This document shows positions 3,729-41,798 of a stretch of 51,665 nt of DNA, one piece after another. The stretch lies in NCBI GenBank assembly GCA_944323925.1, contig CALUUI010000014.1, positions 1 to 51,665 on the forward strand, given 5' to 3'. Position 1 is the first letter of the stretch. Every line of letters begins with the position of its first letter. Under the pieces are notes generated by a model that worked only from the letters and a program-made list of their open reading frames with translations, did no database searches and was not told where the DNA came from. The stretch comes from Candidatus Gastranaerophilales bacterium (GTDB taxonomy: Bacteria > Cyanobacteriota > Vampirovibrionia > Gastranaerophilales > Gastranaerophilaceae). A program made the position numbers and the translations under genes.

Positions 3729-5270
3729 TTAATTGTTTTTTAGTATTGCCTCTAAATCGTCATTAGGCGTAGTTATTTGTTTGATTTTAAATTTTTCTGT
3801 TAAAATATTTAGAACATTTGGAGATACAAAGGCAGGAAGCGTTGGCCCAAGCCTAATATTTTCCATTCCTAAATACAGTAGAGTAAGCAAAATGCAAACA
3901 GCTTTTTGTTCATACCAAGATAAAATAAGAGATAGAGGCAGGTCGTTAACCGAACAATTAAAGGCTTTGGATAATTCAGTTGCAACTTTAATTGCAGAAT
4001 AAGCATCATTACATTGCCCCATATCTAACAACCTTGGAATATCATTAATTTTGCCTAAATTTAGGTCATTAAACCTATATTTTCCGCAGGCAAGAGTTAA
4101 TACAAGGGTGTTTTTAGGAGTTAGTTTAACAAATTCTGTATAATAATTCCTTCCGACTTTTGCGCCGTCGCATCCCCCTACAAGAAAAATATGTTTTATA
4201 TCGCCTGATTTTATATATTCAATAATTTTATCAGCAACAGATAAAACAGTTTTGTGCCCAAATCCTACTAAAAAAGTATCTCCGCCGTTTATCCCTGTCA
4301 TTTTTTTATCTTCTTTGTATCCGCCAAGTTTAAGTGATTTTTCTATTACAGCGCTAAAGTCTTTATCTTTACCGATATGTTTGATATCAGGGTATTCAAC
4401 AACAGAGGTTGTAAAAACTCTATCTTTGTAACTATCTTTTACAGGCATGATACAGTTTGTTGTAAATAAAATAGGGGCTGGTACATTATCAAATTCTTTT
4501 TGTTGGTTTTGCCAAGCAGTACCAAAATTTCCTTTTAAGTGTTTGTATTTATTTAATTTAGGATATGCGTGACAAGGCAGCATTTCGCCGTGCGTGTATA
4601 TGTTTATGCCCTTATCTTTTGTCTGTTCAAGTAAAAGCTCCAAGTCCTTTAGGTCGTGACCTGTTACGATTATAAAAGGACCTTTTTCTATGTTTGTTGT
4701 AACTTCTTTGGGCTCAGGTGTTCCAAATGTTTCATTATTGGCCCTGTCTAATAATTCCATACATTTTAGGTTTATCTCGCCAACTTTTAAAACTATATTT
4801 AATAACTTATCAGTTGTATTTTCTTTTGAAATATCAATTAATGCTTCATAGAAAAAATTATCTACGGTTTCATCTTTATATCCAAGAACCCTTGCGTGAT
4901 ATGCGTAAGCGGCCATTCCTTTTAGCCCGAATAGTATTAATGATTTAAGGCTTCTTATATCTTCGTTTTCATTCTCCCATACTTTTTTTATATCGAATTT
5001 TGTACTTTTTTCAATATGTTTTTTCACTTCTTCTGTAAGTTCTATTATTGATTTATCATCAAAATTAACGTTAGTTATTGTTGTAAATAGTCCTTTAATT
5101 AGAAGTTCTGTGATTTTATCATCTTTTTTATTGCTATTAGCTAATTCTATTAAAGCAGATGTGAGTTTATCTTGTAAATTAGCGGTATTTTCTTTCTTTC
5201 CGCAAACTCCCTGTACGGTACAACCCTTACCATTTGCGGTCTGTTCGCATTGAAAACAAAACATTGTCAT
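3729..5270 (-). CDS. hcp: Hybrid cluster protein (Hcp, hydroxylamine reductase family)
   Basis: Hcp reduces nitric oxide or hydroxylamine in anaerobes and protects against nitrosative stress in the cytoplasm. At 513 residues it is near the usual length. N-terminal Cys5, Cys8, Cys17 and Cys23 have the C-x2-C-x8-C-x5-C spacing of the cubane cluster. Hybrid-cluster ligands are all visible: VTGHDL (His), YTHGEML (Glu), TTNCIMP, VGGCDGA (persulfide Cys), LACGKY, MGQCNDAYS and SWYEQ. An AAAGGAGG Shine-Dalgarno sits 5 nt before the chosen ATG; a second ATG two codons later is also possible. No hcr partner gene adjoins it, so the electron donor must be elsewhere. It lies 82 nt after the dtxR-type operon on the same strand. 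A degenerate paralogue lies at 39476. Confidence 0.95.
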   Translation of the reverse strand: MTMFCFQCEQTANGKGCTVQGVCGKKENTANLQDKLTSALIELANSNKKDDKITELLIKGLFTTITNVNFDDKSIIELTEEVKKHIEKSTKFDIKKVWENENEDIRSLKSLILFGLKGMAAYAYHARVLGYKDETVDNFFYEALIDISKENTTDKLLNIVLKVGEINLKCMELLDRANNETFGTPEPKEVTTNIEKGPFIIVTGHDLKDLELLLEQTKDKGINIYTHGEMLPCHAYPKLNKYKHLKGNFGTAWQNQQKEFDNVPAPILFTTNCIMPVKDSYKDRVFTTSVVEYPDIKHIGKDKDFSAVIEKSLKLGGYKEDKKMTGINGGDTFLVGFGHKTVLSVADKIIEYIKSGDIKHIFLVGGCDGAKVGRNYYTEFVKLTPKNTLVLTLACGKYRFNDLNLGKINDIPRLLDMGQCNDAYSAIKVATELSKAFNCSVNDLPLSLILSWYEQKAVCILLTLLYLGMENIRLGPTLPAFVSPNVLNILTEKFKIKQITTPNDDLEAILKNN

Positions 5271-39475: not shown

Positions 39476-41068
39476 ATGGTTCACAATTATTTTGAAGATT
39501 ACGGATATGACAGTTGTACATCAAGAGGGGTATGCTCTATTAGTTCCAAGATGGCTTCTGTTCAGGAAATTGTTTTACTCTATCTTAGAGAGTTTGCTTA
39601 TTATTCTATTCAGCTAAAAAAATTTAATATTGAAGAAAATAGCGTTAAAAATTTGATATTAAATGTTTTATCAGTTTTTGTTTCTAATCCTGAGATTAAA
39701 GATAATATGCTTGATGAAATGGTTTGTATTTTTTCTAAAGAATTAAATAAAATTAAGCAGGATTATATCAATTCTTGTAAAAGCTCTAGCTTAGAGCCGG
39801 AATTAATTCAAAATGAGTTCGATTTGACCAATGACTGTGATGCGCTAAAATCCATTAGGCTTGGTGAAAAACAGTATAGCAAACATGGTGATTTGGATAA
39901 AAGAAACAGGATTATTCACGAGTTAATATTCTTTTCTGCTAAAAGTATTACCACTTATATTCTAGAGTTGAATTCTTTTGGTGAAGATTCCAAATCTGCT
40001 TATGATATCTTGTTAGAGCTTTTAGATAGCTTAAATATAGAAAATATTAGAGATGATGATTTGAAGTCTATTTTATATAATGTTGCGGAGGAAGAGTATT
40101 CTTTAGTTAAGCGTTTGGCGAAAATTAAAGAGAACTTATATGGAGAAAAAGGTGAAGTAAGCGTTTCTTACTCAACCTATCCAAATAAGACGATACTTGT
40201 AGAGGGAACGAATATAAAAGAATTAGTTGATATTCTCGATTCTGTTAAAAATATGGGGATTGATGTTTATACTCATGGCGAAATGTTAGCTGCGCATACT
40301 TACCCCAAGATACAAGCCAGAGAAGAACTAAAAGGACATTTTGGCAAAGGGTGTGGAAATACATTGTTAGATTTTTCAACTTTCCCTGGGGCTATATTTG
40401 TTGGAAAACATTCTATTGATAATATTGACAGTTTGTATCGTGGCAGAATTTTTACATCTGATATAGTTGTGCCATCGGGTGTTGTTAAGATTGAAAATTC
40501 GGATTATGAACCTCTAATTGCTTCTGCTCTTGAGGCAAGAGGGTTTAAGAAGGGCAGAAAGGTTGATGATGAAATTGTTGGATTTAATCTGCAATTAATT
40601 AAAGATAAAATCAATGATTTGAATTCTGAAGACTTTAATGCAATATGTTTTGTTACACAGGGTAATGATACTTATGAAGATAAAAGTTACTTTGAAAAAC
40701 TTTTTAAGTTGTTACCAGAGGATATTTTTGTAGTTAATTTTACGCATCATTTTGAGAGAAAAAATATTATTAATATTCCGCATTGTTATGATTTGTATTC
40801 TGTCTTTGAAATTTTAACAATGTTAAAAGAAAAATTTGATATTTCGGATGTTCCAATAATTGGTTTTGTGCCAAAATGTGATAAGCATATTACAAATTTA
40901 ATTCTTAATATGATGAAATTTGGAGTAAAAAAAGTTTTTATGGGAAAATGCGCAGCAAAAAATCTTAATCCTGTTGTCGCAAAGAAATTTTGTGAGATTT
41001 TTGACGTTATACCATACTCTCAAGCTAAAGATGACTATAAGCATTTTATAGACTTGCTTTCGCTTTAA
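39476..41068 (+). CDS. Degenerate hybrid-cluster-protein paralogue lacking most cluster ligands
   Basis: This 530-residue protein aligns by eye with Hcp. GIDVYTHGEMLAAHTYPK, GHFGKGCG, GRIFTSDIVV and CYDLYSVFEIL match the canonical Hcp at 3729. The N-terminal four-Cys cluster motif is replaced by YDSCTSRGVCSI (Cys14, Cys20). The ligand His (GHDL) is GTNI, the Cys of TTNC is lost, VGGCDG is VTQGNDT, ACGKY is THHFER, and only the THGEM Glu and one C-terminal Cys stand. It probably cannot build the full hybrid cluster and so has a new role. There is no Shine-Dalgarno. Its 3' end overlaps the ferredoxin-like gene by 23 nt. Confidence 0.75.
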   Translation: MVHNYFEDYGYDSCTSRGVCSISSKMASVQEIVLLYLREFAYYSIQLKKFNIEENSVKNLILNVLSVFVSNPEIKDNMLDEMVCIFSKELNKIKQDYINSCKSSSLEPELIQNEFDLTNDCDALKSIRLGEKQYSKHGDLDKRNRIIHELIFFSAKSITTYILELNSFGEDSKSAYDILLELLDSLNIENIRDDDLKSILYNVAEEEYSLVKRLAKIKENLYGEKGEVSVSYSTYPNKTILVEGTNIKELVDILDSVKNMGIDVYTHGEMLAAHTYPKIQAREELKGHFGKGCGNTLLDFSTFPGAIFVGKHSIDNIDSLYRGRIFTSDIVVPSGVVKIENSDYEPLIASALEARGFKKGRKVDDEIVGFNLQLIKDKINDLNSEDFNAICFVTQGNDTYEDKSYFEKLFKLLPEDIFVVNFTHHFERKNIINIPHCYDLYSVFEILTMLKEKFDISDVPIIGFVPKCDKHITNLILNMMKFGVKKVFMGKCAAKNLNPVVAKKFCEIFDVIPYSQAKDDYKHFIDLLSL

Positions 41069-41798
41069 GTAACGGAATCAGTTTCTCGGCATAGTACGGG
41101 TTAAAATATTTGCTTACAAGCTGTTCTGTGTTTTCAAACTCTCCAAGATACTTTAATTCGAGATTTGGGGTTATTCCTGTATATGTTTTTATTATCTGCT
41201 TATATTTTTCTGTAGGAATATCAGTAACAATATATTTAGGGTTAGTTAGTTTAATCAGCTTAACAATTTCGTACATCCTTTTTCTAAAGCGAATGATATT
41301 CCCTGATATAAGGTAGTGTTTGCCCCAATCTTCTTCTTGTTTGTTTAACAACTCTATTGATTGAGCATTTAGAACTTTTAGTACCTCGTTAATGTTTTCA
41401 CCAAGATAAATTACTTTTGTTTCGAACTTGGCGGAAATAATTTTTTTCTTTTTATGAAATATTTTTTCCCATAATGCGGATTGCTTAATCCTGATTTTTA
41501 TGCCACCAAGAGTTCTATATAGGTATTTTAATTTGGCAGCAAAAATAATATCTTCAATAGGAATTTCACTAGGACAGCAGGTCGAACATTTTCCGCACCT
41601 TAAACATTTATCAAGATATTTATTAATTCCTGATTTAATGGGAACCTCTCCAAGTATAATTCCTTTTAAAAGTATTAGAATTCCTCGTGCTGTTCCGCAT
41701 TCGTTTCCGGCTTCCAAATATAGTGGACAGGTTTCTTGGCACAATCCACATTTTGAACATTTATGTATAGTTTCTCTGTATTGCTCAAGTTTAATCAT
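41046..41798 (-). CDS. Short GlcF/LutA-like 2[4Fe-4S] ferredoxin-domain protein
   Basis: This 250-residue protein has two clear cluster motifs: CSKCGLCQETCP (Cys14, 17, 20, 24) and CLRCGKCSTCCPSEIP (Cys64, 67, 70, 74). They resemble the N-terminal part of the glycolate oxidase iron-sulfur subunit. The normal protein has about 400 residues with two CCG domains; here the rest (100-250) has none of those Cys-rich motifs. It may pass electrons to or from a partner such as the Hcp paralogue on the opposite strand, but that is only proximity. It begins within the 3' end of glmU (8-nt overlap), so it is in that operon. Confidence 0.75.
   Translation of the reverse strand: MIKLEQYRETIHKCSKCGLCQETCPLYLEAGNECGTARGILILLKGIILGEVPIKSGINKYLDKCLRCGKCSTCCPSEIPIEDIIFAAKLKYLYRTLGGIKIRIKQSALWEKIFHKKKKIISAKFETKVIYLGENINEVLKVLNAQSIELLNKQEEDWGKHYLISGNIIRFRKRMYEIVKLIKLTNPKYIVTDIPTEKYKQIIKTYTGITPNLELKYLGEFENTEQLVSKYFNPYYAEKLIPLLKAKASL

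Follow-up and report, generated by a model that had tools for sequence, protein, structure and literature searches.

What becomes of an Hcp when most of its cluster ligands have been replaced? This question is raised by the window, the whole stretch of 51,665 nt of DNA analysed here, which carries two Prismane genes, the only ones found in its genome, on the same contig in opposite orientation and separated by 34 kb (Table 1). One of them encodes a canonical Hcp, as the preliminary description had stated, with all ligands in place and with scores of 555 bits in Pfam and of 745 and 695 bits in NCBIfam. The other encodes the relative that is the subject of this study, hereafter the stripped Hcp. 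Its reading frame begins with an ATG codon and has an in-frame stop four codons upstream, and the Prismane domain (PF03063) spans residues 14-521 of the product (Pfam, E 3.5e-31). The NCBIfam hydroxylamine reductase models give it 208-209 bits, below their equivalog cut-offs of 361-367 bits, and both Pfam and NCBIfam point toward a hydroxylamine reductase name for this protein. A hidden upstream CxxC or a frameshift was considered and rejected, given the stop before the ATG and the short start common to the relatives in the genus.

Table 1. Positions in the window of the two Prismane genes, of selected residues of the stripped Hcp, and of its convergent neighbour.
Feature	Position	Strand	Basis
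Ligand-stripped Hcp-like protein, 530 aa	39476..41068	+	Full-length Prismane domain, Hcp fold, 119-member clade
C14-x5-C20, third and fourth cubane cysteines	39515..39535	+	Alignment to canonical GC-x5-C; Cys in 101 and 103 of 119
C101, new conserved Cys	39776..39778	+	Cys in 105/119; canonical Hcp has no conserved Cys at this position
T245, replacing hybrid-cluster His244	40208..40210	+	Ungapped alignment to 1e2u; His in only few members
E269, retained equivalent of hybrid-cluster Glu268	40280..40282	+	Glu in 27/119 members
C437, sole remaining hybrid-cluster Cys (genus level)	40784..40786	+	Cys in 12/119
C468-D469, new Cys adjoining the Glu494 position (now Asp)	40877..40882	+	C468 in 114/119; canonical Tyr in 23/24
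C492, new Cys replacing the threonine of the canonical GPT/S	40949..40951	+	114/119; always and only together with C468
Dicluster 4Fe-4S ferredoxin-like protein, convergent, overlapping the last 23 bases of the stripped hcp	41046..41798	-	Genus-level neighbour only
Canonical Hcp, 513 aa, all cubane and hybrid-cluster ligands	3729..5270	-	Profile matches, alignment

The fold of the stripped Hcp was predicted with AlphaFold2 (64 relatives), and the model has a mean pLDDT of 86.9 and a pTM of 0.88, with residues 1-19 uncertain. The top Foldseek matches of the model are Hcps (1e1d of D. vulgaris, TM 0.80, and 7de4 of E. coli, TM 0.77), and CODHs follow after them. VIA-align gives a Z of 30.4 against D. 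vulgaris Hcp (1e1d) and of about 17 against CODHs, indicating that a CODH-type fold is not closer. The full-length Prismane match and the Hcp fold confirm that this 530-residue relative keeps the fold signatures ascribed to it earlier.

The ligands were compared residue by residue in an alignment to D. vulgaris Hcp (1e2u) and to the window's own canonical Hcp. In the D. vulgaris protein, we take the hybrid-cluster ligands to be H244, E268, C312, C406, C434, C459, and E494. The stripped Hcp has two of these seven left, E268 as E269 and C459 as C437, and the others are changed (H244 to T245, C312 to S313, C406 to G396/N397, C434 to H424, and E494 to D469). The alignment, in which no full ligand set is found, bears out the earlier statement that the His and three of the four hybrid-cluster cysteines have been replaced, and it shows further losses, with a single Glu ligand remaining of two and only half of the cubane cysteines. 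Cys1 and Cys2 of the cubane are lost, and Cys3 and Cys4 are retained as C14 and C20, two of the four cysteines of a complete set. The C-x5-C start had been described as new; it is old, with the x5 spacing that cubane Cys3/Cys4 have in canonical Hcps (GCTVKGMC in D. vulgaris). The seven hybrid-cluster ligands (one His, two Glu, and four Cys) are common to all Hcp classes (PMC10502027). By the Hcp/CODH position equivalence taken from the same paper, the Cys set of the Ni,Fe-CODH C-cluster is also absent, as T, S, G/N, and H occupy the equivalent Hcp positions and a single Cys remains. From this ligand set we infer, with good support, that the hybrid cluster is no longer built.

Nearly every sampled genome of its Gastranaerophilales family, a group of gut bacteria, has the stripped Hcp; these genomes cover about 40 genera, with tandem copies in places (two in G021 and G056, three in G017). 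In a 60-genome sample of other members of the phylum, only profile scores in the canonical range, about 250-325 bits, are found outside the family. Within the window's genus, the dN/dS values are 0.04-0.10 (about 0.05) where dS is measurable, indicating strong purifying selection, and a pseudogene was rejected on the value of about 0.05 and the confident full-length model. Across 119 members of the clade, none of the hybrid-cluster ligands is kept in 80, one is kept in 27, two in 11 (the group to which the window protein belongs), and three in 1. The hybrid-cluster ligand set is thus lost throughout the clade, together with at least half of the cubane ligands, while the fold is kept and the gene is retained almost universally in the family. 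An ordinary Hcp with normal clusters, in which the ligands are misaligned, would agree with the full-length Prismane match, but canonical paralogues show 7/7 ligands in 24/24 cases in the same alignment where those 80 members show 0/7, and in many members the relevant region does not contain enough cysteines; we regard this explanation as extremely unlikely. At one locus (L072:4968-9830), three divergent tandem copies of the stripped Hcp are found in one genome, and the middle copy is without both N-terminal cysteines.

The distribution of the canonical Hcp in the family is patchy, and because it is absent from several near-complete genomes that carry the stripped protein, the latter is not an obligate partner subunit. 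In the window's genus, a canonical match is found only in G000 and G003 among seven genomes. Both genes lie on one contig in the window, as might be expected if the stripped protein were an inactive partner subunit of the canonical Hcp, but the other five of these genomes have the stripped gene and no canonical match, and the distance and opposite strands of the two genes in the window also argue against such a partnership, which we consider very improbable.

Five cysteines are conserved in the clade, of which C101, C468, and C492 are new. C14, C20, and C101 are each Cys in 85-88% of the 119 members. C468 and C492 are both present in 114 members and both absent in five, with no member having a single one, and the five double losses fall at three places on the tree (L033/L046, L052/L053, and L183). 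In the predicted secondary structure of the model, strands 461-465 and 484-489 precede C468 and C492, respectively. The neighbouring strands and the co-occurrence suggest that C468 and C492 probably lie side by side at the former cluster site. Further clade-specific residues are H288 (Asn in canonical Hcp), D299 (Glu in canonical Hcp), and R322-G323. The idea of a re-purposed Hcp, put forward in the preliminary description, is well supported by the clade-wide ligand loss, the purifying selection, and the conserved residues newly acquired at the old active site.

A glutaredoxin gene lies directly upstream of the stripped hcp, always on the same strand, at 70 of the 117 loci with enough upstream sequence, and it is the only recurrent neighbour of functional look at these loci. 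Pfam confirms glutaredoxin, and the 70 genes fall into two types, a GST_N_3/glutaredoxin type with CPYC or CPYS (56 genes) and a classical type (14 genes). The spacing between the glutaredoxin gene and the stripped hcp is -37 to +48 nt, with one outlier. No glutaredoxin is found within 1.5 kb of the canonical hcp (0/23 loci). On the tree, the glutaredoxin linkage changes six times and the two types are in separate clades, indicating at least two acquisitions; the locus counts are therefore not independent events. In the window's genus, no glutaredoxin adjoins the stripped hcp, and the gene homologous to the linked type is found next to yebC on another contig (C7). The glutathione synthetase (PF02955) is present in 40/40 genomes of the family, and the family therefore very probably makes glutathione. 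A thioredoxin reductase is present in the window's own genome. At two loci (L052:1333-2958 and L053:5001-6626), C468, C492, and C101 are lost, yet an upstream glutaredoxin of the CPYS type is present.

These features bear on the possibility that the protein has become a non-catalytic scaffold or sensor, such as an NO- or redox-sensing pseudoenzyme. The retention of the fold after loss of all ligands in most members would agree with such a role, but chemistry is suggested by the repeated pairing with glutaredoxin and by the conserved, linked cysteines of the former active site, and neither a regulatory domain nor a constant regulatory neighbour is seen, making a role of this kind decidedly unlikely. 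As for the specific roles suggested earlier, nothing was found in particular support of an NO sensor, and a pure structural scaffold is a poor fit with a perfectly linked Cys pair and a glutaredoxin operon.

A thiol pair served by glutaredoxin and glutathione would be the most economical account of what has replaced the cluster. C468 and C492, each of which follows one of two neighbouring strands in the C-terminal domain, may form a redox-active or substrate-binding thiol pair, which would be reduced, or deglutathionylated, by glutaredoxin with glutathione. We propose that glutaredoxin acts on this thiol pair and that its gene lies directly upstream in most relatives for this reason. The stripped Hcp would then act as a glutaredoxin-linked thiol oxidoreductase or a thiol-switch protein, perhaps with a role in the handling of oxidative or nitrosative stress, and would not be an NO/hydroxylamine reductase of the Hcp type. 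We give about an even chance to this explanation, in which an Hcp scaffold has lost its hybrid cluster and is now a dithiol protein served by glutaredoxin/glutathione; the CPYS motif of some linked glutaredoxins counts against it, as does the unlinked glutaredoxin of the window's own genus. The wider claim that an Fe-S-O cluster enzyme has been converted across the whole lineage to a metal-free dithiol enzyme, so that the CODH/Hcp fold would have given rise to a new class of thiol oxidoreductase, is more tentative, and we place it somewhat below even.

The conserved C14, C20, and C101 could be a metal site, and the main rival to the dithiol explanation is a rebuilt metal centre, in which a new Fe-S cluster or a metal ion would be bound by C14, C20, and C101, by C468 and C492, or by all five, with glutaredoxin as donor or acceptor of a [2Fe-2S] cluster. 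Glutaredoxins are known Fe-S carriers, which favours a rebuilt centre, as do the presence of five conserved cysteines and the canonical cubane spacing kept by C14/C20. However, C14/C20 are missing from one whole clade, and C101 is gone in 14 members in which the others are mostly kept. C14, C20, and C101 have thus been lost independently in several members and do not behave as one obligatory four-ligand set. We consider a rebuilt metal centre possible but rather unlikely.

The preliminary description also pointed to the convergence of the stripped hcp with a two-cluster ferredoxin-like gene. That gene exists as described, but it was seen next to the stripped hcp only in this genus, where it lies beside glmU, and on these grounds we rejected the ferredoxin as a functional partner. 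Its product (41046-41798, minus strand) resembles the N-terminal part of GlcF/GlpC, and its position adjoining glmU is constant within the genus. PADLOC gave no match, and an anti-phage role was rejected accordingly.

The tree places the stripped clade apart from canonical Hcp, with three sister-family sequences branching between them. These sequences (L062:4944-6596, L063:4953-6605, and L064:803-2446) are partly stripped Hcps of sister family f7 and adjoin rpoC. L064 keeps the four cubane cysteines, Glu268, C312, and C406 and has lost the His, C434, and C459; L062 and L063 keep only Cys3, Cys4, E268, and C312. The three are plausible intermediates between canonical Hcp and the stripped clade, and a canonical copy (L109) occurs as well in G070, a genome of the same family. 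If a canonical root is assumed, the tree points to stepwise ligand loss after duplication. A strongly altered Hcp-like frame in G069 of family f6 (L186, minus strand, about 1254-2933) keeps C406 and C434 and has mostly lost the cubane cysteines; it may have lost its ligands independently.

If the dithiol explanation is true, the stripped clade would clearly show, in nature, an Hcp/CODH scaffold that has survived the loss of its metal cluster and gained a new active site, and since the sister family retains partly stripped relatives, the evolutionary path could be followed. Should the protein be annotated as hydroxylamine reductase in this family, inferences of NO detoxification drawn from the name would be wrong. 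In the open-access literature, we found no described Hcp that has lost its whole ligand set, and no paper that links Hcp or hydroxylamine reductase to Gastranaerophilales or Melainabacteria. Judged by title and abstract, the match for Gastranaerophilales with glutaredoxin is a Fusobacterium phage study, and the matches for prismane, glutaredoxin, and operon are on other subjects.

Compared to class I/II Hcps (PF03063; D. vulgaris 1e1d/1e2u and E. coli 7de4), the stripped clade shares the full-length fold, the domain order including the outer helices, the structural Gly/Tyr/Thr/Phe positions, and the spacing of cubane Cys3/Cys4. It differs in the ligands, with 2/7 kept here and mostly 0/7 in relatives, in the loss of cubane Cys1/Cys2, in the new C101, C468, and C492, and in the glutaredoxin operon of its relatives. 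CooS-V (CODH-V) is a deviant CODH of the same superfamily in which ligands are swapped and an Fe-S-O cluster is still bound, and it resembles the stripped clade in that the CODH/Hcp scaffold alters its active site via ligand substitution (PMC9311411). The Ni-CODH structural groups A-4 and A-6 have altered C-cluster motifs and are likewise natural superfamily members with replaced active-site ligands, but they retain most C-cluster cysteines, and a glutaredoxin link is not described in the part of that paper drawn on here (PMC6344411). CooS-V and, according to the same part of PMC6344411, these Ni-CODH groups change one or few ligands (PMC9311411, PMC6344411), and CooS-V keeps a cluster-binding ligand set (PMC9311411), whereas the stripped clade has discarded almost all of its own.
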